Source: an uncultured Methylococcaceae bacterium (lineage in GTDB: Bacteria > Pseudomonadota > Gammaproteobacteria > Methylococcales > Methylomonadaceae). From it: a DNA stretch of 55,984 nt. The translations under genes and the position numbers were made by a program. Location of the stretch: positions 1 through 55,984 of the forward strand of contig CAIVQX010000014.1 of NCBI GenBank assembly GCA_903908165.1, in the 5' to 3' direction. The notes beneath the pieces are model-generated. The model worked only from the letters and a program-made list of their open reading frames with translations. It did not search any database and was not told the DNA's origin. The first letter of the stretch is position 1. Each line of letters opens with the position of its first letter. Of the stretch, positions 6,637-52,661 are shown piece by piece.

Positions 6637-7737
6637 ATGAAATTTATTATTAATAGAGAAACCTTATTAACACCTTTACAACAAATAGTTAGTGTCATTG
6701 AAAAAAGGCAAACTATGCCCATACTATCTAATGTTTTAATGACTGTAGAGGAAAATTCACTTCATCTAACAGGTACTGATCTTGAAATTCAAATTATTGC
6801 CAAAATTGTTTTAATATCATCAACGCCTGGTTCTATAACTGTCCCCGCAAGAAAACTTTTAGATATTTGTCGATTTCTCCCTAATGGAGCTGAAATTAAA
6901 TTTGAATTAACGGATGAAAAAATAAAAATTACCTCTTATAAAAGTCGTTTTTCTTTAAGTTGTTTACCAGCTAATAATTATCCTGAATTTTCTGAATATG
7001 GTTTTGAAAATAATTTTTCCATTAATGCTGATAAATTTAAGAAAGCTTTGGATAAAACTATTTTTTGCATGGCAAATCAAGATATTAGGTATTATCTGAA
7101 TGGTTTATTAATTAATATTTCTAACAATAAAATTAAACTTGTTGCCTCAGATGGCCATCGCTTATCAATTTATGAAGATTCTTTAGAACAAGTTACTGGT
7201 TATGAATCTAGAATTATTTTTCCTAGAAAAGGGATTATTGAACTTAATAAATTACTTGATGATCACGATATAGAATTAAAAATTGAGTTTTCCAACACTA
7301 ATATTAGAATCTTTATAAAAAATTTAATTTTTTCAGCAAAATTAGTCGATTCTAAATATCCCGATTTTAGTAAAGTTTTTCAAAAAGAATTTTTTAATTC
7401 AATTACTATAAAAAAACAAATAATTAAAGATGCGTTAACTAGAGTTGCAATTTTATCAAATGAAAAAATTAAAGGAGTTACATTAGATATAAACTCTGAG
7501 GCTTTAAAAATTAGCACACATAACCCTGAGCATGATGAAGCTGAAGAAGAAATTGCTATTGAATATAATGGGGATCCATTATCTATTGCTTTTAATGTCC
7601 AATATTTGTTAGATGCAATTTCTAATTTAGATTCTGATGTTACTGTATTAACTATTGCTACTGATACCAGCAGTTGTTTTATAAGCGAACCATCTGATTC
7701 AGTTTATAAATTTATTGTAATGCCAATGAGACTCTAA
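6637..7737 (+). CDS. dnaN: DNA polymerase III subunit beta (sliding clamp)
   Basis: Ring-shaped processivity clamp for DNA polymerase III. The 366-residue length equals that of E. coli DnaN. The start MKFIINRETLLTPLQQIVSVIEKRQTMPILSNV is the typical first clamp domain, with the conserved R-x-T-x-PIL. Three repeated clamp folds fill the chain and it ends with the conserved FIVMPMRL, which forms part of the partner-binding pocket. It lies between the origin and recF, 13 bp before the latter. Confidence 0.98.
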   Translation: MKFIINRETLLTPLQQIVSVIEKRQTMPILSNVLMTVEENSLHLTGTDLEIQIIAKIVLISSTPGSITVPARKLLDICRFLPNGAEIKFELTDEKIKITSYKSRFSLSCLPANNYPEFSEYGFENNFSINADKFKKALDKTIFCMANQDIRYYLNGLLINISNNKIKLVASDGHRLSIYEDSLEQVTGYESRIIFPRKGIIELNKLLDDHDIELKIEFSNTNIRIFIKNLIFSAKLVDSKYPDFSKVFQKEFFNSITIKKQIIKDALTRVAILSNEKIKGVTLDINSEALKISTHNPEHDEAEEEIAIEYNGDPLSIAFNVQYLLDAISNLDSDVTVLTIATDTSSCFISEPSDSVYKFIVMPMRL

Positions 7738-7750
7738 CTTTTTTACAATA

Positions 7751-11288
<3,538 letters not shown>

Positions 11289-42599: not shown

Positions 42600-43280
42600 T
42601 TAAGACGGGGTTTTTCCACTACGTCGTTGAGCTAAAATCCATTTTAATGAAAGGGGCAATAGAAAGAAAGCGCAGGCTGCTATAGCAAGATACTGTGCTA
42701 GATGAGATACATCTGCTTGTATTGCTCCTGCACCGACAAGTGTTGCTGTTACGCCAAGAGGAAGAAAGCCTAATACCGTACCAATCCAAAAGTCACAATG
42801 GCTAACAGAACTCATGCCTAATAAAATATCATTATATAAACCACTAATGGGTAACTGTCGCATAAATAAGACGGATCGCCATCCTCGTGCATGTGTAGAT
42901 TGAGATAAGGCGATAATTTTTGGAAATTTTTTCTGGACAAATTCACGACCACTCCAGCGCGCAAAAATAAAAGCACCATAAGCACCAACAACAGTCCCGA
43001 AGTGGCTTAAAACAAAACCCCAAGTAAAGCCAAATATCACTCCCGCCAAAGTGCATAAAAGCAGTCGAGGCATACCTATTGCTGTTAGTAAGGCAGAAAC
43101 AAGCATAAATATGGCCGGTGCTGCATAACCAGTTCCAGCCAGCCACAATTTAATTTGATGGCTTTGATTGAGCACTTCTTTTAATGGCACTGAGTAGATT
43201 AAAAAACTACAACCCACCACGATTATAAGAAGTAAAACCATAGCGATTTTTTTTGACAATTTATTTTTTGATTCAGCCAC
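42600..43280 (-). CDS. TVP38/TMEM64 (DedA-like, VTT domain) membrane protein
   Basis: 226 residues with about five membrane segments. The VTT core is present: AGVIFGFTWGFVLSHFGTVVGAYGAFIFAR, FMRQLPISGLYNDILLGMSSV and FWIGTVLGFLPLGV. These proteins are implicated in lipid scrambling and membrane homeostasis. It is convergent with the asparagine synthase, 14 bp apart. Confidence 0.88.
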   Translation of the reverse strand: MAESKNKLSKKIAMVLLLIIVVGCSFLIYSVPLKEVLNQSHQIKLWLAGTGYAAPAIFMLVSALLTAIGMPRLLLCTLAGVIFGFTWGFVLSHFGTVVGAYGAFIFARWSGREFVQKKFPKIIALSQSTHARGWRSVLFMRQLPISGLYNDILLGMSSVSHCDFWIGTVLGFLPLGVTATLVGAGAIQADVSHLAQYLAIAACAFFLLPLSLKWILAQRRSGKTPS

Positions 43281-43914
43281 TATTCACCTGAAAAATTTAA
43301 CGGGAGTTATCTTACATTCGGCCAGCTACATAAAAGCTATTGAAAAAAGATCCTTAAGTGAGACAAAATCAGTCGACATTGAGTGCATGCCGACCAGATC
43401 TTAGTTGGATAAGCCATGTCATTTGTAACATCATCAGCAGGGCTTTTATAATGCCTGTAAAAACTTATTTCCCATTTTTTTAGTACCTTTAGTCTGAAAA
43501 ACTCGGAAATATGGGTATCGAAATGGGGTAATTAAGTCAAACTCTTTAAATATCATGGTTATATCTTAACACATAAGCAACAGGGGTATTACTCATAACT
43601 GTAAAAAGCAACGTAATCTTTTTGTCGTTTTTTATAGCGTTCGACTTTAATAATTGATGAAAAGGATGCCGCTAAGATGCCCGATTATAGTATGAGAATG
43701 ATAATTCCAGTCATAAAGAGATAACAACTTATCTCAATATCGACAATAAAATATTTTTGTCACAATACCTTAAAGAAACCTTCATTAGTTCGTCACAAAA
43801 GAGTTTTACTCTTTGTTCTGAAAATAGAATAAAGAAATTGAAGATCAATGATTTTCTGCTCTCGTAATCGCTCGTGGTCGACTTTTACAGACTTATTCTC
43901 TTAAGGAGATAAAA
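43281..43914. other. Intergenic region without a recognisable gene
   Basis: 634 bp. No credible ORF on either strand and no RNA gene recognised. A near-perfect stem ACAAAAGAG/CTCTTTGT (43795-43816) with loop TTTTA is present, without a T-run after it. The last bases hold a strong Shine-Dalgarno, AAGGAG, for the PAP2 gene. Confidence 0.4.
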
Positions 43915-44430
43915 ATGAAGCTACTTTACTCGATCCATAAATACGATGTATCCCTTTTTATCTGGCTAATTAATACCAGAATTCATGGCAGTCTAACTCA
44001 GTGCGGTAGATACTTATCAAAAACAGGTGACGGTCCTTTATATGGACTAATCATAGCTGGTTTATATGGTAATCAGGGCTTCAGTCCTTATTTACAAGCT
44101 ATTCTTCTAGCATTTTTAATAGAACGAATTATATATTTTGTACTTAAAAACAGCTTGAAACGAAACCGACCCGAGGCAGCTCTAAAAAACTTCCACAGCA
44201 TTATTACTCCGTCAGATCAATTTAGCTTTCCATCAGGGCATACTTCAGCAGCCTTCATGATGGCCACTTTACTCAGCTTTTACTTTCCTTCTTTATTCAT
44301 CCCCCTTTATTGTTGGGCAACATTGGTAGGTTGTTCTCGCGTCGTTCTTGGGGTTCATTTTCCTACTGATATTTTAGTAGGTAGTATTTTGGGTATAGGT
44401 ACTGCAATTTTTAGCTTAGGACAACTATGA
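43915..44430 (+). CDS. PAP2-family membrane phosphatase
   Basis: 171 residues with five or six membrane segments. The three-part phosphatase signature is complete: K-x6-R-P as KNSLKRNRPE, P-S-G-H as SFPSGHTSAAF and S-R-x5-H-x3-D as SRVVLGVHFPTD. It removes phosphate from a lipid phosphate such as undecaprenyl pyrophosphate or phosphatidic acid. Its stop overlaps the ATG of the next glycosyltransferase (ATGA), so the two are coupled. Confidence 0.92.
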   Translation: MKLLYSIHKYDVSLFIWLINTRIHGSLTQCGRYLSKTGDGPLYGLIIAGLYGNQGFSPYLQAILLAFLIERIIYFVLKNSLKRNRPEAALKNFHSIITPSDQFSFPSGHTSAAFMMATLLSFYFPSLFIPLYCWATLVGCSRVVLGVHFPTDILVGSILGIGTAIFSLGQL

Positions 44431-45467
44431 AGATTTTTTATGGTGTACAAGGGACCGGAAACGGCCATATAACACGTGCTAGAGTAATGGCAAAAGAACT
44501 CTATGCAGCAGGACTGGATGTCACCTTTCAATTTACCGGCCGACCAGCCGATAAGTATTTTGAGATGGAGGTGTTTAACGGTTACCAATTAAGAACAGGA
44601 TTAACCTTTAACACTGAAAAAGGACAAGTAAGTTATTTAAAAACAGCGCTTGATGCCAAGCCTATTACCTTCATTAGAGATATAAAAACACTGGATTTGA
44701 CTGCTTATGATTTAGTGATCACTGATTTTGAACCTGTAACAGCTTGGGCTGCAAAAAATCAAAAAATACCCGTTTTAGGCATAGGCCATCAATATGCTTT
44801 TAATCATGATATTCCTAGAGCCGGTTCCGATCCGATTGCTAATCAAGTCATGAAATATTTTGCCCCCGCTGATATAGGCGTGGGCTTACATTGGCATCAT
44901 TTTGGGCAACCTATTTTACCACCTATTATTGATACACCTGAAACACCCAAAAGTATTGTTAAAAATAAAATTATTGTTTATTTACCTTTTGAAGATCAAC
45001 AAGAAGTGATTGATTTATTGAAGCCATTTAAAAATTTTGATTTTCATATTTATGCACCTGATGCCATTCAGTCACCAGTTGATCATATTTTCTGTAAACC
45101 ACTTTCACGGCTTGGCTTTCAGAAAGATTTATATGATTGTGCAGGAATTATCAGTAATGCCGGTTTTGAACTGGCCAGTGAGTCGCTACAATTAGGTAAA
45201 AAAATTCTCGCCAAACCCTTGCATGCACAAATGGAGCAAATATCCAATGCAGCAGCCTTAAAACAATTGGGATATGGTCAAACTATGCATGATATGGATA
45301 GTGCAATTATTGAGCAATGGTTACATGATGATAATACCATTCTTATTACCTACCCCAATATAGCTAAAGTGCTGGTTAAATGGATACAAGAAGGTATGCC
45401 TGAAATGCAACCTGATTTTATTAAAGCAATCTGGAGCAGAGTCGAAGTTCAACATAGCAAACATTAA
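44427..45467 (+). CDS. MJ1255/VC2487-type glycosyltransferase-like protein
   Basis: 346 residues of the GT-B type related to MurG and UDP-glycosyltransferases. It starts MKIFYGVQGTGNGHITRARV, the glycine-rich loop of this family. The second Rossmann half carries the donor-site region GIISNAGFELASESLQLGKKILAKPL. Coupling to a PAP2 phosphatase suggests a glycolipid pathway at the inner membrane. Donor and acceptor are unknown. Confidence 0.85.
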   Translation: MKIFYGVQGTGNGHITRARVMAKELYAAGLDVTFQFTGRPADKYFEMEVFNGYQLRTGLTFNTEKGQVSYLKTALDAKPITFIRDIKTLDLTAYDLVITDFEPVTAWAAKNQKIPVLGIGHQYAFNHDIPRAGSDPIANQVMKYFAPADIGVGLHWHHFGQPILPPIIDTPETPKSIVKNKIIVYLPFEDQQEVIDLLKPFKNFDFHIYAPDAIQSPVDHIFCKPLSRLGFQKDLYDCAGIISNAGFELASESLQLGKKILAKPLHAQMEQISNAAALKQLGYGQTMHDMDSAIIEQWLHDDNTILITYPNIAKVLVKWIQEGMPEMQPDFIKAIWSRVEVQHSKH

Positions 45468-45503
45468 TTTTTTTCTATGCATTAAGCTCTTGTCAATATT
45501 AGG

Positions 45504-45539
45504 CACCCTCTAAAAATGAGTTTTGGAGGGTGAGTTTTT
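45504..45539 (+). terminator. Rho-independent terminator
   Basis: CACCCTC (45504-45510) pairs with GAGGGTG (45526-45532), and a T-run follows. It ends the PAP2-glycosyltransferase unit. Confidence 0.85.
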
Positions 45540-46380
45540 ACTAAGCTTCCGTTTATCTATCATTAGGTTAGTTTTACTCTTGTTGTTTATTTGAAGATTG
45601 CTAGGTAAGTGGTCAAAAATGCGGTTTTAAATAGATTATGCCTAATTGGATTCAGCGAAATATAAATTTTTATGAGCTTAATTGAAATAGATCAGAACGG
45701 ACTTATTTAGTTTATTGTTAGCTCTTCTGCGGTATTTGCAGTGGAATTTAGAAACTCCGGATGGATTAAATGGTCATAGAGATTTTTTAAATTTTATGCC
45801 ATACAGGCTATTGAAAATCGACGGTGAATTTTTAACTCTGTATATTGAATTCCCAAAAGTGGTTATTTTTGATTTGCCTATACACCCCGTTAACAATGAT
45901 TTTATTCATCCAATAACTGACTTATTTTACAAATCCAAATTTTTAATAAATAACTGGCTATAGGTAGTTATACGAATAGTTTTTTAGATGATAATTGATT
46001 ACAGTATTAACCATATACTTTCTCCGGAAACTTTAGGTAACCGGAATCTCTTATGGTTTAAAAATAAGATGAGTTAATTTGTTAGATACCGAGAGGCTAT
46101 AGGTAGTTATACGAATAGTTTTTTAGAGGGTAATTGATTACAGTATTAACAATATACTTTCTCTGGAAACTCTAGGCGACCTAAAGCGTTAATCATTTGA
46201 AAGTAAGATGAGTTAATTTGTTAGATACTGTGAGGCCATAGGTAGTTATACGAATAGTTTTTGTTGATAACAAAGATTATTATTTAAACCATGAATAGTG
46301 TGGTTGATGTTGGGTTTCGATACAGAAACTAATAACGTGTCGGAATAAATTTGATTAATCAAAAAAACGAGGCAAATCTT
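45540..46380. other. Long gene-poor region with a doubtful short ORF
   Basis: About 840 bp between the glycosyltransferase terminator and the first exported small protein. An 82-codon frame with a TTG start (45715-45963) has no recognised family, no clear ribosome binding site and a stop inside the first tandem repeat; I do not call it a gene. The right half holds the 139-bp repeats. A short inverted repeat TTTGTT-GAT-AACAAA at 46260-46274 follows the last repeat and could be part of the promoter region for the gene at 46381. Confidence 0.5.
45956..46265. repeat. 139-bp tandem repeat, two full copies and a partial third
   Basis: Copy 1 is 45956-46094, copy 2 is 46095-46233 and copy 3 covers 46234 to about 46262 before diverging. 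The best conserved parts are the first 30 bases (GGCTATAGGTAGTTATACGA...), then TAATTGATTACAGTATTAAC, and the end AAGATGAGTTAATTTGTTAG; the middle has diverged. Each copy carries TAGGTAGTTATAC (45961, 46100, 46239), shared with the palindrome at 26847-26866. It directly precedes the exported-precursor cluster, so it probably acts as an upstream control region. Confidence 0.9.
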
Positions 46381-46827
46381 GTGAAAAAAATTACATATTT
46401 ATTACTACCTGTGTGTATGGGTTTGTCAGTTGTCACGACAGATTCTTTTGCTTCTGATTCTATATTACTTTCGTCCGATCAAATGGATCAGGTGACTGCC
46501 GGATTGGGCGCGTTCGTAAATGTCAGTGCTATTGGTATTAGCCCATTTTATGCTAACACTCGTACTCAATCTGTGGCTCTTACTGCCGTTAGTGGCAATA
46601 ACAGTTCCGCATTGGGTGGTTATGTTGAAGTAGCAGGAGGCGGTGCTACTGCCGTCGCTGCTGGACAAGGTGCTTCGACAAGCACGACTGTTACACCCGC
46701 AACAAGTACAAATGGTTGGACGGGGACGACTACTTATGTAGCTGAAGGTCATTTTAAAAGCTCGCTCGTAGAGATCAACGCAAACGTAACGTATACGTCT
46801 GGTAATCTGTTTGTCAATCCTTTGTGA
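46381..46827 (+). CDS. Small exported protein with Q-M-D-x-V-T-A-G motif (precursor A)
   Basis: 148 residues from GTG at 46381, preceded by GAGG at 46369-46372; a TTG ten codons upstream is also in frame. A signal peptide (ends near TDSFA, residue 24) is followed by LLSSDQMDQVTAGLG at 29-43, the motif shared with the next two genes. The remainder is rich in Gly, Ala, Ser, Thr and Val (GGYVEVAGGGATAVAAGQGAS) with almost no charge, and has predicted beta character. First of a run that leads to a FapD-like peptidase and FapF-like porin. Inference: a secreted substrate of that system. Confidence 0.8.
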   Translation: MKKITYLLLPVCMGLSVVTTDSFASDSILLSSDQMDQVTAGLGAFVNVSAIGISPFYANTRTQSVALTAVSGNNSSALGGYVEVAGGGATAVAAGQGASTSTTVTPATSTNGWTGTTTYVAEGHFKSSLVEINANVTYTSGNLFVNPL

Positions 46828-46863
46828 AAAGCAATATTTACATTGAACAGTAACACTTGGTTA

Positions 46864-46881
46864 TTACGAAAGCACTCGTAA
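46864..46881. other. Stem-loop between precursors A and B
   Basis: TTACGA (46864-46869) pairs perfectly with TCGTAA (46876-46881) around a 6-base loop, with some weak A/T pairs beyond. There is no T-run directly after it. It may mark a processing or attenuation point in the 170-bp gap between precursors A and B. Confidence 0.4.
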
Positions 46882-46998
46882 ATAATCAAAATCAAGAATT
46901 TAGCTCGCAGGCCCTATACATTTTATAGCGTGGCGGCTGGATGGTTCCTGAGGACAATAAAGTCTGAAGGTTTTTTAAATAAAGTTAGGAGATTTCCT

Positions 46999-47277
46999 AT
47001 GAAAAAATTAATTGCTATTATTGCCCTTGCATCTAGCATGGGTGTTGCTTATGCAGATGAACCAGTTGCATTAAGTGATGTTCAGATGGATAACGTCAGT
47101 GCAGGAGGTTTTGCATTCTCCTTTGGTGAAGCAAACGCATTTGGCGCTATTTCAGCTGCAACTCAAACTATTCTAAAAACCAATGTAACAGTATTGGGTA
47201 TAATTCCAACACAAGCTGGACAAATTACTATAGATCAAGCGCAAGCGTGGTCTTCTAGTTCAGCTTCTGCTCTGTAA
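46999..47277 (+). CDS. Small exported protein with Q-M-D-x-V-S-A-G-G motif (precursor B)
   Basis: 92 residues. I chose the ATG at 46999 because AGGAG lies 8 bp upstream and the frame then opens with a clean signal peptide MKKLIAIIALASSMGVAYA; the same frame extends upstream to 46930. Residues 25-37 are LSDVQMDNVSAGG. This resembles the E/D-x-x-V-x-G-G end of double-glycine leaders, the usual substrate of C39 peptidases. The mature part is small, polar and Ser/Ala-rich and ends SSSSASAL, close to the ASALY end of precursor C. Confidence 0.82.
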   Translation: MKKLIAIIALASSMGVAYADEPVALSDVQMDNVSAGGFAFSFGEANAFGAISAATQTILKTNVTVLGIIPTQAGQITIDQAQAWSSSSASAL

Positions 47278-47316
47278 CAAACTCACAACATATCCAAATT
47301 TTTGGAGGAGATTATT

Positions 47317-47691
47317 ATGAAAAAATTTACTATATTAGCAAGTGCTTCATTGTTGGCTATCGCTGGCAGTGCAGTTGCTGAGCAGTCGTTAACTGATGCA
47401 CAGATGGATGGTGTAAGTGCAGGTGCGGTGGTGTTTTTGCAAGGCACTGCAGGTGGTAATGCATATGGCAATATAATTGCCAATTTGCTTGGCAACACCA
47501 GCTCTAAGACTAGCGCACTAGCTGATCCAACTGGTGTTATATCTGGTTTTCTACAGGCTCATGCAACTGCTGAAAATACAAGTGTTGGCACTTCTGTATT
47601 TGGTGTAACCGCAGATGCAAACGGCAATCCAGTTACCATCGGTGGCGTATTGGCGCAAAGCTCAACTACTGCTGCTTCTGCTCTTTATTAA
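47317..47691 (+). CDS. Small exported protein with Q-M-D-x-V-S-A-G motif (precursor C)
   Basis: 124 residues from the ATG at 47317, which has the strong Shine-Dalgarno GGAGGAG at 47304-47310. Signal peptide MKKFTILASASLLAIAGSAVA, then LTDAQMDGVSAGA at 25-37, the same residue positions as in precursor B. The mature region is Gly/Ala/Ser/Thr/Asn-rich and uncharged (GTAGGNAYGNIIANLLGNTSS) and ends TTAASALY. Lies 39 bp after precursor B and is probably cotranscribed with it; a strong terminator follows. Confidence 0.82.
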   Translation: MKKFTILASASLLAIAGSAVAEQSLTDAQMDGVSAGAVVFLQGTAGGNAYGNIIANLLGNTSSKTSALADPTGVISGFLQAHATAENTSVGTSVFGVTADANGNPVTIGGVLAQSSTTAASALY

Positions 47692-47770
47692 GGGTAAGAA
47701 AAAGCAGGAAATGCCCCTTTCCGTTAAGAATGAAGGGCAAGTCCGGCTTAGTAGAGCTCGCTGTTAAGGG

Positions 47771-47808
47771 ACGCCCTGCACTCATCATAGTGTAGGGCGT
47801 TTTCTTTT
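47771..47808 (+). terminator. Rho-independent terminator after the precursor genes
   Basis: ACGCCCTGCACT (47771-47782) pairs with AGTGTAGGGCGT (47789-47800), with one G-T wobble, around a 6-base loop, followed by TTTTCTTTT. A weaker stem, TGCCCCTT/AAGGGCA at about 47714-47741, precedes it. The precursors are thus separated from the peptidase-porin pair, which needs its own promoter in 47809-47996. Confidence 0.92.
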
Positions 47809-47996
47809 ACAACCAAAAAACTTCTTGCAAAAATAAATTGTGAGTACATAAGCTTCATTAAGAGCTTGTTTTGACATAATTTATGCGCTAATCAAATGAA
47901 TTTCTACGAACATTACCAATCATTTTTCATTGTTTGGCTATACTTGAATCGTACCTGTTTATTCATAAAAATATCTTGTTAATCTAAAAGGACTTA

Positions 47997-48626
47997 TTGC
48001 CTAACCCCTTTATTTCATCTATGAAAACACTGCTTGTAGTTATAGGTCTGATAGTAAATTTTTCTGGATTGGCGGAAGCTCGCTCTGTTACATCGCTTCT
48101 AGAAATACGTAGAGAAAATGTAGTGATTCAAAAGTGGGATTTAAGCTGCGGAGCGGCCGCATTAGCAACCTTATTGAATTATCAGCAAGGCGATTTTGTA
48201 ACAGAAAAAGAAATTGCTAAATCATTGATGAGTCGACCCGAATACATTAAATATCCTGGTTTGGTAACTGCCAGACAGGGATTTTCTTTGTTGGATCTTA
48301 AACGTTATGTCGATGGTCGGGGTTACAAAGGTAATGGATATGGCAAGTTAACATTTGAAGATCTCCTTAAAAAGGCGCCAATAATTGTCCCAGTCAGTAT
48401 TTTTGGTTACAACCATTTTGTTATTTTTCGAGGTATGCAAGGAAATCGCGTACTTCTGGCTGATCCGGCTTGGGGAAATCGAACCATGCTGGTTGAGGCA
48501 TTTGAAAACATTCGAATTGATTTTCCGCAAATAGGTAAAGTCGGTTTTATGATTGCTCGCCTGGATGGTGCTGAGCCCCTTAATAACTTAGCTCCAAAGG
48601 CTAAAGAATTTGTTATGACACGATAA
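47997..48626 (+). CDS. fapD: FapD-like C39-family cysteine peptidase
   Basis: 209 residues from TTG at 47997 (AAAAGGA at 47986-47992); ATG at residue 9 is the alternative. A signal peptide (ends near GLAEA) makes it periplasmic, unlike C39 domains of ABC transporters. The triad is complete: Cys51 in KWDLSCGAAALATLLNYQ, His140 in GYNHFVIFRG, Asp156 in LLADPAWGNR. The segment ARQGFSLLDLKRYVDGRGY also matches what I recall of FapD of Pseudomonas functional-amyloid operons. It processes or chaperones exported substrates. The porin gene follows 7 bp later. Confidence 0.88.
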   Translation: MPNPFISSMKTLLVVIGLIVNFSGLAEARSVTSLLEIRRENVVIQKWDLSCGAAALATLLNYQQGDFVTEKEIAKSLMSRPEYIKYPGLVTARQGFSLLDLKRYVDGRGYKGNGYGKLTFEDLLKKAPIIVPVSIFGYNHFVIFRGMQGNRVLLADPAWGNRTMLVEAFENIRIDFPQIGKVGFMIARLDGAEPLNNLAPKAKEFVMTR

Positions 48627-48633
48627 GAGTAAG

Positions 48634-49935
48634 ATGAAAAAAACGAGTAACAAAAAAATACAGCAAAAAATAGCTACTGAGTCTGGTGCATTTTCATCAA
48701 AGTTTACCTTGTTGGTCGGTGCTGGGTTAATTGTTACAGGTTGCGCCTCGGTTCAGCCGCATGATAATGTAACCGATACAGCGTTAAGCGATCATCTGAT
48801 ACAAAAAATTGATGAGCGTGATCGAAAAATTGCAGAACGTGATCAGGTTATCGATGATCTTCAGCGCAGAGTAAAGCAATTGGAGCAAAATAAATTAGTT
48901 TACTTACCGGTTGAAAAAGGATCCAACACAGTTGCTACTGCCGAGATTAAAACAACACTACCGGATAAAACCGCCGGAGTTTCGTCTCCTCCCCTAAGTC
49001 AAACACTTGCCCAGAAAAAAACAGTCATGCCTTCCCAGGCTAAAGGGGGCGCAGGTAGCTTTGAGGTTGATGAAGATTCAGCCCAACGTGCATTAGAACG
49101 TACTTTAATTGTAACAGGCGCGCTGTTATTACCCTATGGGTTAGCTGAAGTACAGCCTTTTAGTACTTATACAAGGCGAGCTTACGACGTAACAACGGTA
49201 TTTCAAAGTTCCCCGGGCATACTTGCAAATGCATCTATTCGTCAAAATAAGTTTGATATAGGTTCAAATTTATTGGTTGGATTGCCTTTTGAGTCCCAGT
49301 TTGAGTTAAGAGTCCCTTATGACGTTACCAATCAATCAGTTGTGACACCTAATGGCTCTAACAACCAAGAAAATAGTAATACTGGCAACTCACTCGGTGA
49401 TGTGAATATTGGGTTAGCAAAGACCTTACTTCGTGAAAGCGAATGGATTCCTGATTTAATTGCTCGGCAGTCTTGGACTGCCGGAACGGGTAGTCTCGAA
49501 AATAATAATGTGTATATGGGCGGCGGTTTTAATAGTTTTACTACCTCTTTGGTAGCACTAAAACGGCAGGATCCTTTAGCATTTTCAGTTAGAGGAGGCT
49601 ATCAAACCTTTTTAGAGAATAATAATATTCAATTGGGCGATCAATATAGCGTATCCCTCAGCACTACCTTGGCGGCCAGTCCGCAGACTTCTTTAACATT
49701 TGGCTTACAGCAAACTTTTGCACAACAACAAAAAATCAATAATATTGCGCTGAATGGCAGCGACGTTGTCTCAAGTGCTTTTACCTTAGGCGCTGCATCG
49801 ACGATAGGGAAAAGGTTGTTTTTCTCGGTGACCGGTGGTGTTGGTTTGACAAATTCATCACCGGATTATTTTCTTAATATTATTGTACCGTATCGGTTTG
49901 ATATGCCTTTTACAACAACAAAAACCGGGTCATAA
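48634..49935 (+). CDS. fapF: FapF-like outer-membrane export porin with N-terminal coiled coil
   Basis: 433 residues. Residues 51-88 form a heptad-rich coiled coil (LIQKIDERDRKIAERDQV), followed by a disordered linker (about 90-150) and a beta-barrel with alternating strands; NSLGDVNIGLAKTLL and the end SSPDYFLNIIVPYRF resemble FapF, a trimeric barrel gated by its coiled coil. Two oddities: the N-terminal segment is preceded by 20 polar residues, and it ends in V-T-G-C at Cys37, a lipobox-like site not known in FapF. The barrel ends in PYRF but nine more residues follow. Works with the FapD-like peptidase just upstream. Confidence 0.82.
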   Translation: MKKTSNKKIQQKIATESGAFSSKFTLLVGAGLIVTGCASVQPHDNVTDTALSDHLIQKIDERDRKIAERDQVIDDLQRRVKQLEQNKLVYLPVEKGSNTVATAEIKTTLPDKTAGVSSPPLSQTLAQKKTVMPSQAKGGAGSFEVDEDSAQRALERTLIVTGALLLPYGLAEVQPFSTYTRRAYDVTTVFQSSPGILANASIRQNKFDIGSNLLVGLPFESQFELRVPYDVTNQSVVTPNGSNNQENSNTGNSLGDVNIGLAKTLLRESEWIPDLIARQSWTAGTGSLENNNVYMGGGFNSFTTSLVALKRQDPLAFSVRGGYQTFLENNNIQLGDQYSVSLSTTLAASPQTSLTFGLQQTFAQQQKINNIALNGSDVVSSAFTLGAASTIGKRLFFSVTGGVGLTNSSPDYFLNIIVPYRFDMPFTTTKTGS

Positions 49936-49977
49936 ATTCTAAGTCTTTTTTCGAAACCAGAGCGAACCATTTGTGCT

Positions 49978-51411
49978 TTAGCTACTTATTTTTAAAGCCT
50001 TAGGTTGATAGTGCCGGCCAGAAACTATTATCAATAAGCTTAAAATTAATAAAATAACTTTACTGGGTTCAGCAACAGTGGCTGAAGTTTTTAGGGGTAC
50101 GCCACTGAAAGACAACAACGATGTAACTGGCGTATCAAAATTTTGCTGCCAAAGTTCGCCATTCACGTTCAATAGATTAAATCCAATAAATAGCTCAGGT
50201 AGTAAAAGAGAGTCTATAGTAATATTGGATAGGTAATCTTGTAACCAAGGCGATGTAGACGAGTTGGCATCTAAAATGTTAAGAATCGGTGCAAATAAAT
50301 TAAAGCCTTGTTTGGTAAATAAGGCATCATCAAAAACAACGCCTGGTAGACTGGCGGTAAAAAGCACATCCCTAGACTTATCAAGTAAGCTGACGGTATC
50401 TCCTGAAAAATAGCTTTGTCCAGAGGCATCAGTCATTCTTTGTAAGGGATCAATTTTTAGATAACCACCATTTAGCGGATCATTGATGTACGACTGTCCA
50501 AGATTGTTAGCGAGCAAATTGATCGGTAACAGATCAAAAGATAGTATCCCCGCACCTGCATCCCAATGCATTTGATTACTTATATTGTTGTTATCTAATG
50601 CCGAAAGATGTCCTATTTGATCGCCCGTTTGATTGGTAGCTACTGCCGGCGCCTCGTAGGATAATTCGTTGTGAGTATTGATGACGGTTAGGAAAAATGG
50701 CTCTTGCTGTGGTGCCAAAGCAATAGCTAACGCCAAAGGGCTAGAGGCTTCATTCAATGTTATTTCATTTCCAATTTGGTTCATGTTGCTGTCAAACCAA
50801 TTTTTTATGATTTCTACTGTGGAGGCATCTCCCCAAAATCCTGTGGTTGACTTACCATTTTCCAAATAAGTAAAAAAGCCGGCAACTGTTTCTTGTACGC
50901 CGGATGCAAATGTCTGTATAACTTGAATAGTGTCGCTAATATAAGCAAATGTAGATGTTGGTGTAGCTTGCAAACCGAACGTTTTGAATGTCCAATCTAA
51001 ATTTAAGTAACTGGCTGAAGAAGGAGCTACTAATGCATAAGCAGTACTTTGACTCGAGGCCGCCGCTCTTGAAAAAAGAGGCTCACTGGTAAAGGATTTG
51101 GCTAGGGTGATATAGCTGGAATCGAAAGTTGCAATTGCTGTTTCGTTAACAGGTGCTTGAACACTCGCCGAGGCTAGACTTGCATGTATCGCTGGGTAAT
51201 TGAGTATTCCCGGATTGGTGCTCACTGCAATAGCATAAGCATTAGTCTCAATGGTAGATAAACCATAAATAAGTCCGCTTCCATCAATGGTAGCAGTTAT
51301 TGATTGATTACTAGATGTTGTTGCCATTGGTATTAAGGCAACAGCAGATAATGGGGTGGTGGTTAAAGCTACAAAAATAATCAGAGCTTTAATAGTGTTG
51401 TAAGTAATCAT
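49978..51411 (-). CDS. Exported protein with a PEP-CTERM-like sorting tail
   Basis: 477 residues from the ATG at 51409-51411 (AAGGA 8 bp upstream; signal peptide MITYNTIKALIIFVALTTTPLSAVA); the frame extends further up to 51459. The C-terminus VAEPSKVILLILSLLIIVSGRHYQ has the layout of PEP-CTERM: a short motif, a hydrophobic helix and a basic end, but the motif is E-P-S rather than P-E-P. The body has no recognised domain; it is rich in Ser, Thr, Ala and Asn with repeated beta-type segments. Known: such tails are cut by exosortase; no exosortase is visible here. Confidence 0.78.
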   Translation of the reverse strand: MITYNTIKALIIFVALTTTPLSAVALIPMATTSSNQSITATIDGSGLIYGLSTIETNAYAIAVSTNPGILNYPAIHASLASASVQAPVNETAIATFDSSYITLAKSFTSEPLFSRAAASSQSTAYALVAPSSASYLNLDWTFKTFGLQATPTSTFAYISDTIQVIQTFASGVQETVAGFFTYLENGKSTTGFWGDASTVEIIKNWFDSNMNQIGNEITLNEASSPLALAIALAPQQEPFFLTVINTHNELSYEAPAVATNQTGDQIGHLSALDNNNISNQMHWDAGAGILSFDLLPINLLANNLGQSYINDPLNGGYLKIDPLQRMTDASGQSYFSGDTVSLLDKSRDVLFTASLPGVVFDDALFTKQGFNLFAPILNILDANSSTSPWLQDYLSNITIDSLLLPELFIGFNLLNVNGELWQQNFDTPVTSLLSFSGVPLKTSATVAEPSKVILLILSLLIIVSGRHYQPKALKISS

Positions 51412-51809
51412 TAAACATCCTTTTGTTTTATTTAATAGAGGTTCAAATTTTTTGATCACTTTGGCTTTTGTTTAATGATCTAACTTAAATCTCTGATAAG
51501 TTGAAAAGTATAGTATTAAAAACAGGAAGAAAAGTTTTAAAAACCAGATGAATAATATGCCTAGATGTCTAATCAATGATGCGAACGAAACTAACAGTTT
51601 TGACTTAGATAAAGACAATTTAAAGTCTTTTTTCTTTAAAGACTTCTAGTTTATTCATGCCCATAAGTAGCAAATGTCAACAATATGAACTATTTTTAAA
51701 GAGCAGAACAAGCAACGTACTACAACTCGAATAATAAAAAACGAATGTGTTGGTATGTTGTTTTAATTGAATTCGACTAACTTAATTATTCAATGAATAG
51801 GGCAATTTG
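51412..51809. other. Divergent intergenic region
   Basis: 398 bp between two divergent exported-protein genes. AAGTCTTT (51623-51630) and AAAGACTT (51638-51645) form a perfect 8-bp stem with a T-rich 7-base loop. I see no ORF; promoters for both genes are expected here. Confidence 0.4.
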
Positions 51810-52661
51810 ATGATGAAATATATTATTTTTACGAGTGCACTGTTGTTGGGAAGTGTAATCGCTGGCGAAGCGTTGGCGGTGGATTGTCCAATTTCTGGAC
51901 AAGTTATGGATATATCGACTCAAGCGGAGGTAACAGGTGTACCAGAAGTTCTAGCTAAAACAGAAAATTATACATTTGCTTTTCCGAATGTTGCCGAAGA
52001 GTGCTCTATAACAGTGGGAAATAAAACTTTTAATGCTGGTGATGATTCTAGGCGTAGTGATGATGTTGTCAAATACTTTTCTGAAAATGCGCCAACCGGT
52101 TGGAAATTTTCAAAGGGAGTATTTACAAGCAAAACAGCTGGTGCAGATGTTGCAGATTTGACTTATTCAAGTTCAAATAGCAAGAAAGGGAAAGGGAACT
52201 GTGCAACGAAGCCCATTATAATTCAAACTTCTTCGAATCAAGGTGTAGCTGCTGTTGCAGCAGTTGCCGAAGTCAAAGAAGTTACTGCTGATCCTCAATT
52301 AACAACTTTATTAACAGGTAATACTGTTTGTGATTCGAATGCGACGTACGATAGTTGTGCAAAACATCCTGAAAGGAATCCTTGTATTATAAAAATGGGT
52401 ATACAAGAGCAACATCGTAATGGAGGTGAGTTATGGGATTATAAGCTGGGTCCTTCTAATGTTGTAGATCCAACAGTTCGTGTAGGTGATTGGTCGATAA
52501 CTGGTAGTGATGAAAATACGGTAGTAAATTACGCTTATCCGCCCGGAGGCACTCCCGCGTCTTATAAAGTCTTTGATGCAGGTGCTGGTAATTATTATTT
52601 TTGTTCGGGGACATCGATTGTTGCTACTGCCAAGATTACCAACGCACCGAATTGTAGTTAA
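51810..52661 (+). CDS. Cysteine-rich exported protein of unknown function
   Basis: 283 residues from ATG at 51810 (AGGGCA 7 bp upstream; a TTG one codon before also fits). Signal peptide MMKYIIFTSALLLGSVIAGEALA. The mature part holds eight cysteines (DCPISG, EECSI, GNCATK, TVCDSN, DSCAKH, NPCIIK, YFCSG, PNCS), enough for four disulfides. An Ala/Val-rich linker (VAAVAAVAEVKEV) divides it into two halves, so it may be a two-domain surface or periplasmic protein. No family recognised. Confidence 0.75.
   Translation: MMKYIIFTSALLLGSVIAGEALAVDCPISGQVMDISTQAEVTGVPEVLAKTENYTFAFPNVAEECSITVGNKTFNAGDDSRRSDDVVKYFSENAPTGWKFSKGVFTSKTAGADVADLTYSSSNSKKGKGNCATKPIIIQTSSNQGVAAVAAVAEVKEVTADPQLTTLLTGNTVCDSNATYDSCAKHPERNPCIIKMGIQEQHRNGGELWDYKLGPSNVVDPTVRVGDWSITGSDENTVVNYAYPPGGTPASYKVFDAGAGNYYFCSGTSIVATAKITNAPNCS

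Follow-up and report, generated by a model that had tools for sequence, protein, structure and literature searches.

The window analysed here, 55,984 nucleotides of forward strand from an uncultured Methylococcaceae bacterium (contig CAIVQX010000014.1), encodes three consecutive exported proteins (A, B and C), a predicted periplasmic C39 cysteine protease and an outer-membrane barrel protein resembling FapF. Comparative analysis makes it probable that these genes specify a two-leader export system, in which the substrates would cross the inner membrane via Sec, have a second, C39-type leader cut by the periplasmic protease and then leave through the barrel. An initial annotation had described this arrangement, with a motif behind each signal peptide and a coiled-coil barrel, and all of its parts are present. 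Its proposal of a second leader for a FapD-like protease is upheld by the co-occurrence of leader and protease, leader genes remote from the protease, constraint on the leader and leader endings that match protease clades, but by tree and NCBIfam score the protease sits closer to FilB, the C39 peptidase of Fil (a putative pilus system in NCBIfam), than to FapD.

The leader and its distribution

In A (46381..46827; GTG start at 46381, 148 aa), B (46999..47277; ATG start at 46999, 92 aa) and C (47317..47691; ATG start at 47317, 124 aa), all on the forward strand, the signal peptide is followed by the motif L(-12)xxx[QE](-8)[ML](-7)DxV(-4)[ST]AG and by mature parts of 107, 56 and 88 aa, respectively. 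The motif is LSSDQMDQVTAG in A (46468..46503, +; residues L30 to G41), LSDVQMDNVSAG in B (47071..47106, +) and LTDAQMDGVSAG in C (47389..47424, +), occupying identical residues in the latter two (L25 to G36), as initially noted. Searched with a degenerate DNA pattern of the motif, the 2.78-Mb genome gives three matches, all within these genes, and none to the reversed control; chance was rejected as the origin of the motif by this count, by the co-occurrence within the family and by the neighbourhood count with shuffles given below.

Among 29 window-type substrates, collected with a pattern that fixed parts of positions -8 to -1 and left -12 free, L at -12, M/L at -7, D at -6 and V/I at -4 are universal (29/29 each), -8 is Q or E in 26 (Q in 22, E in 4), -2 is Ala in 28 and Gly in one, and -1 is G or A in all 29 (G in 27). 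In the accessible part of PMC6363468, the leader rule for ComA is L-12, E-8 and L-7, the hydrophobic pockets of LahT accommodate V-4, L-7 and L-12, and typical C39 leaders end in GG, GA or GS. The 29 substrates follow this rule of L(-12), E(-8), L(-7) and a hydrophobic residue at -4, with Q outnumbering E at -8.

The ratio of nonsynonymous to synonymous differences (pN/pS), calculated from the orthologues of A (7), B (6) and C (6), is lowest in the 13-residue leader (0.25, 0.21 and 0.28, respectively), compared with 0.52, 0.38 and 0.46 in the signal peptides and 0.69, 0.65 and 0.79 in the mature parts, values that are only rough because pS is 0.4-0.8. Thus, the leader is the most constrained segment of the substrates; in C, plain identity does not single it out (leader 0.64, signal peptide 0.66). 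The mature parts contain 52-53% G+A+S+T, 1-2 K/R, 2-3 D/E and no Cys, in keeping with their earlier description as low-charge and Gly/Ser/Ala-rich, and N+Q account for 10-12% of A-C. Two were said to end in ASAL, which holds for B, whereas C ends in ASALY. The last residue is L, F, Y or W in 22 of the 29 window-type substrates, reminiscent of a signal for barrel assembly or docking. No Fap model of NCBIfam matched A, B or C, the genome as a whole not having been searched with the FapB and FapC models.

To relate leader and protease, 237 family genomes were queried for C39 orthologues (at least 55% identity to the protease; the one in G036 is split in two fragments) and, by means of a 28-leader profile, for leader proteins. 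Leader proteins (E ≤ 0.001) were found in 13 of 13 genomes with the C39 orthologue vs. 2 of 224 others (Fisher p = 1.2 × 10−19) and, after exclusion of the nine genomes from which the profile was derived, in 4 of 4 vs. 2 of 224 (p = 1.4 × 10−7), p-values that serve only as a guide because the genomes are related and not independent data. Hence, among the genomes searched, motif proteins are not widespread where a fapDF-like pair is lacking, a distribution that the initial annotation had named as refuting its reading. With a cut-off of 0.01, applied to 151 genomes, five more genomes yielded single matches, of which three align solely with the signal-peptide part of the profile (the first 22-29 of its 38 positions).

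Homologues of A are encoded 5' of the C39 gene in six relatives (loci L035-L039 and L042). In two genomes, G029 and G053, the 15 kb surrounding the protease/barrel pair showed no leader gene, and six leader matches are located elsewhere in each. Those of G053 share a large contig with the protease, at a distance of at least 340 kb; those of the more fragmented G029 lie on other contigs, some cut by contig ends, such that fewer than six genes are possible. These remote leader genes suggest recognition in trans.

Beyond the family, the leader profile was run against 369 genomes of the class. The six out-of-family matches with E ≤ 1e-5 come from three genomes (G372, G408 and G483), none of which contributed to the profile, and all six are encoded directly upstream of a predicted periplasmic C39 protease. 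At the three loci involved (L173, L167 and L176), the C39 profile scores 316, 221 and 246 bits and the barrel profile 402, 252 and 293 bits, respectively. The same loci hold two more matches (E = 2e-5 and 3e-4), one match in G372 lies elsewhere (E = 0.002), and nine other class genomes have weaker matches (8e-4 to 0.01), mostly to the signal-peptide part of the profile. The gene set thus recurs in other genera and families, which makes the locus more than a chance assembly.

The protease and the barrel

The protease gene (47997..48626, +) can be read from TTG 47997, but ATG 48021 is the likelier start because inspection by eye then shows a clean signal peptide. The protein passes the Pfam C39 cut-off (PF03412; 45 bits vs. 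22), and the predicted triad Cys51, His140 and Asp156 (numbered from the TTG), as initially assigned, is invariant in all ten aligned proteins, the window protein included. Its best NCBIfam model is FilB (NF050078), at 104.6 bits, below the cut-off of 475; the FapD equivalog (NF058616) scores 85.5 bits, below 330. Among solved structures, a profile built from ten orthologues comes closest to LahT with bound leader (6mpz, E = 1.2e-6), and the predicted model (predicted local distance difference test score, pLDDT, 73 overall, with block means of 78-93 over residues 41-170) likewise matches the peptidase domains of PCAT1, LahT and ComA.

The barrel gene (48634..49935, +) encodes a protein with a lipobox (VTGC, Cys37), whose predicted model (pLDDT 70) comprises a coiled coil (49-87), a low-confidence linker, a plug helix (147-160) and strands (171-417), i.e. 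the architecture of FapF. Its profile matches the solved FapF structures (5o65, 5o67 and 5o68; E about 7e-14), with every other match at 0.13 or higher, which bears out the initial call of a FapF-like barrel; a grouping with unrelated porins, which the initial annotation had named as refuting, was rejected on this result. The model superimposes on the FapF chains with target-normalised template modelling scores of 0.73-0.82, but because its alignment consisted of FapF relatives, it is the sequence match that constitutes independent evidence. The FapF equivalog (NF058560) matches with 40 bits (E = 2.1e-10), under its cut-off of 700, and the window-type barrel profile gave 72 matches among the 79 listed fap loci, to the FapF-position proteins. 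The lipobox Cys recurs in L035, L037 and L042 and has no counterpart in L038-L041 and L044, so N-terminal anchoring of the barrel seems variable. The PTG motif of FapF reads GTG in the window protein, Pro being present in 35 of 36 aligned rows with the window as the exception. The linker contains KGGAG, the Gly-Gly of which is not conserved.

Related leaders in Fap, RGG-type and Fil-like loci

A scan for named fap loci returned at least 79 loci, in which FapE was assigned by its position after fapD and not by a model. At 77 of the 79 listed loci (74 of 77 open reading frames, ORFs, by script and three by hand), the protein after fapD carries a leader of the form L/V/I(-12) x D(-10) x E/D(-8) L/M(-7) xx L/M(-4) R G [RK], or a close variant; of the other two loci, L202 yielded no such protein and L228 is a short contig. 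Only -12 (L/V/I in 74/74), -10 (D in 69/74) and -8 (E/D in 66/74) are independent observations, because the pattern imposes -7, -4, -3, -2 and -1. At L137, the FapE model (NF058559) recognises the protein in the FapE position with 113.9 bits; the model has no match in the genome of the window, nor in any of 14 control genomes. Leader-like motifs are also seen in FapA-position proteins (L184, 3797-4240; L204, 3181-3471; L229, 3725-4195), in a looser or degenerate form in Pseudomonas (ELSDGDFASVASG in L229), and some FapB-position proteins (such as those at L211, 3884-4519, and L208, 3992-4621) have a leader-like segment ending in VRGRF (e.g. IDSNVLSHVRGRF) immediately ahead of the first repeat-like stretch.

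A FapD-profile search of the 369 class genomes gave matches in 53 genomes, none above the FapD cut-off, and 40 loci were fetched. In a second Fap-like group the leader of the partner proteins ends in RGG, and at Fil-like loci it ends in GQ. One Fil-like partner has a weak FilA match (E = 0.0018) near its N-terminus; the FilA model (NF050077) matches nothing in the genome of the window, nor in the control genomes.

For the association with proteases outside the window type, exported ORFs were scanned with a strict leader pattern, window-type loci being excluded. The pattern was found in 59 of 376 ORFs near C39 (within five genes), 0 of 78 far from it and 2 of 28 close by on the opposite strand, and, with the pattern reversed, in 4 of 376; shuffling gave a mean of 5.9 and a maximum of 15 in 200 runs. 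At 48 of 90 loci there is at least one strict-pattern neighbour. A first count, with 'near' as at most three genes on the same strand, had given 50/320 near, 9/57 in between and 2/107 far, 37 of 128 loci outside the window type having dropped out because no C39 ORF was called; the definition was widened to five genes, and opposite-strand ORFs were set apart, after FapA was seen among the in-between matches, and both definitions point in the same direction.

On a tree of 47 proteases, the six leader endings require only five changes, the minimum for six groups, a value reached in none of 200 shuffles; thus, leader endings track C39 clades. The tree comprises the window, nine window-type loci, L046-L054, 18 of the 40 FapD-profile loci, and 17 loci hand-picked from the 79 fap loci minus 7 for which no C39 ORF was called; leader endings were labelled by eye at loci with a readable partner, those of L040 and L041 being taken from leaders elsewhere in their genomes. 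The window group (support 91/65) joins the Fil-like side (94/81, just under the strong mark of the tool) and not FapD.

Two further arrangements were noted. L050 encodes (7269-7787, -), next to a predicted periplasmic C39 and with no barrel seen, a protein with a leader-like HELASVEAK ahead of a domain matching peptidoglycan-hydrolase/amidase models, a candidate enzyme cargo for a route of this kind. In L172 (5535-5825), an exported 96-aa protein with a leader-like LSTAEMGEIKG is encoded on the strand opposite the periplasmic C39, so that a partner may be divergently coded.

Probable export scheme, alternatives and locus layout

In the scheme that we consider probable from these sequence comparisons, Sec would take A, B and C to the periplasm, where signal peptidase would strip the first leader. 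The next ~15-18 residues, ending in L-x3-Q/E-M/L-D-x-V-S/T-A-G, would then dock as a C39-type leader in the hydrophobic groove of the protease, which, judging by the fit to the LahT/ComA rule and by comparison, would cut after Ala-Gly. Cutting would be coupled to hand-over to the coiled-coil/plug/barrel protein, and the barrel would pass the low-charge chains outside, probably into a surface layer, fibre or matrix, the least certain step, suggested by FapF homology and composition. A single protease/barrel pair may act in trans on several substrates. Fap (FapE, FapA), the RGG-type Fap-like group and Fil-like systems probably follow the same principle, each with its own leader ending.

The window system shares with Fap a predicted periplasmic C39, a coiled-coil/plug/barrel outer-membrane protein and Sec-type low-charge substrates, and a leader of the same layout is borne by FapE- and FapA-position proteins. 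In contrast to Fap, where the leader ends in RG[RK], the window leader ends in [ST]AG; all three window substrates carry it and substrate genes can sit elsewhere; A-C match no Fap model, and the scores are far under the FapD and FapF cut-offs; and the barrel has a lipobox, and GTG in place of PTG. The likeness to Fil consists in FilB as top NCBIfam model, the position of the window clade on the tree and the leaders of Fil-like partners, but the protease is under the FilB cut-off, and the leader ending and substrates are unlike. Fold, triad and leader rule are those of the C39 domains of bacteriocin ATP-binding cassette (ABC) exporters (LahT, PCAT1, ComA), whereas the window protease is free, predicted to be periplasmic, and would act after Sec and with no ABC transporter. 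By sequence, then, the window encodes a distinct Fap/Fil-related predicted export subtype, outside both systems by curated cut-offs, which very probably works like Fap and Fil. The distinct subtype suggested by the initial annotation stands on those cut-offs and on the lack of Fap model matches in A-C, although the leader is not peculiar to it, variants being present in FapE and FapA.

More broadly, and with somewhat less assurance, we favour a general Gram-negative Sec-then-C39 route, in which a second leader, exposed after signal-peptide removal, would commit proteins to a FapF-like barrel, the clients being FapE (and FapA) in the Fap branch and all-leader substrates with scattered genes in the window branch. 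The related leader in Pseudomonas-type systems hints at what their protease cuts. FapD is needed for Pseudomonas amyloid export, and the leader of FapE marks this protein as a likely substrate of FapD and delimits where the cut would fall; the wider value of the comparison is this predicted FapD recognition motif. If the route exists, the leader would provide a sequence handle for clients whose mature parts share no similarity, and it might act as a portable tag for delivery via FapF-like barrels.

As far as the accessible parts of the papers go, FapD is described as a periplasmic C39 whose active-site Cys is required for FapC secretion and whose target is unclear, Fap proteins as being without canonical C39 sequences, and FapE as missing peptides from its first ~70 residues (PMC5557850). 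In 2018 the FapD substrate was called undetermined, and fapD and fapF were co-located in five further phyla (PMC6173800); by 2025, FapD was thought to process the N-terminus of FapE and the periplasmic region of FapF (PMC12822426). The accessible portions of PMC11787515, PMC9268375, PMC12392863 and PMC3684753 describe no leader. We found no description of a FapE leader or a window-type system in the literature within reach, which left aside many subscription papers and bioRxiv preprints, nor did literature searches on Fil turn up a leader.

Several points weigh against the two-leader scheme. FapA-D are apparently unprocessed, with FapA peptides spanning the full sequence (PMC5557850, in part), although FapA has a leader-like motif, and FapC is drawn as a substrate of FapD in the accessible part of PMC10638192. 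The motif called double-glycine-like in the initial annotation fits the C39 leader rule, but its dipeptide is Ala-Gly, not Gly-Gly, the Gly at -2 being replaced by Ala in all but one of the substrates. No strict-pattern neighbour was found at 42 of 90 loci, with crude calling of ORFs and signal peptides, and by eye L170, L171, L172, L174 and L175 have no clear leader protein on the strand of C39. Besides the relatedness of the genomes, in many of them the family and class profile searches did not score all first-look candidates, so the absences are not exhaustive. Finally, in G016 and G212 leader genes are present and C39 was not found. In the former (L085, 6665-8369), a gene that we take to be transposase-like comes after substrate genes resembling B and C, possibly a decayed copy; G212 is 70% complete, and its fetched locus of just 2187 bases suggests that the contig probably ends soon past the leader match.

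These points bring in alternatives, among which the motif might be a docking tag only, bound by a non-cutting (chaperone) C39 or by the coiled coil of the barrel and retained on the secreted protein, with C39 cutting another target such as the barrel linker. The KGGAG of that linker would suit this, as would PMC5557850, which, in its accessible part, considered cleavage of the FapF linker, tested a chaperone role and reported FapA as unprocessed despite its leader-like motif. We nevertheless consider it unlikely, given that the catalytic triad is invariant in 10/10 proteins, that the linker Gly-Gly is not conserved, that small residues close the motif, as in C39 leaders, and that FapD C38A abolished FapC secretion in the same source. 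That A, B and C resemble bacteriocins or microcins, taking Sec rather than an ABC transporter and being ripened in the periplasm, appears highly improbable: the leader is of the bacteriocin type, the mature parts are small and variable and the copies scattered, but no immunity, modification or ABC gene is present among the nine neighbouring proteins scanned, the mature parts are 56-107 aa, Gly/Ala/Ser/Thr-rich and free of Cys, and the barrel groups with FapF. Even less credible is a mere paralogue signature of duplicated genes, unlinked to the protease; the N-termini are common to A, B and C and duplication is possible, but the motif outlasts the mature parts, few family genomes that lack the C39 orthologue contain it, and other periplasmic C39s have neighbours (FapE-, FapA- and amidase-like) that carry it too.

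Returning to the layout of the locus, a 12-bp GC-rich hairpin with a 6-nt loop and a subsequent T-rich run (47771..47800, +) between the C and C39 genes is a possible intrinsic terminator; it was not among the calls of a simple terminator scan and is revealed by folding (z = -3.97 for 47690-47830). Given the hairpin and T-rich run, the mRNA of A-C may be separate from, and more abundant than, that of the protease and barrel. A sigma-70 promoter scan was uninformative (6 found vs. 11.4 expected). Directly 5' of A lies a tandem repeat (45956..46262), possibly of regulatory role, whose 139-nt unit is present in two complete copies with 86% likeness, followed by the beginning of another; an RNA element upstream of A was rejected, as no Rfam model matched in 43000-52000, the repeat included. 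Adjoining the barrel gene, 49978-51459 (-) encodes an exported protein, PEP-CTERM-like by eye, with no Pfam or NCBIfam match, and a homologue with 46% identity is encoded near the barrel in L039 (3014-4456).

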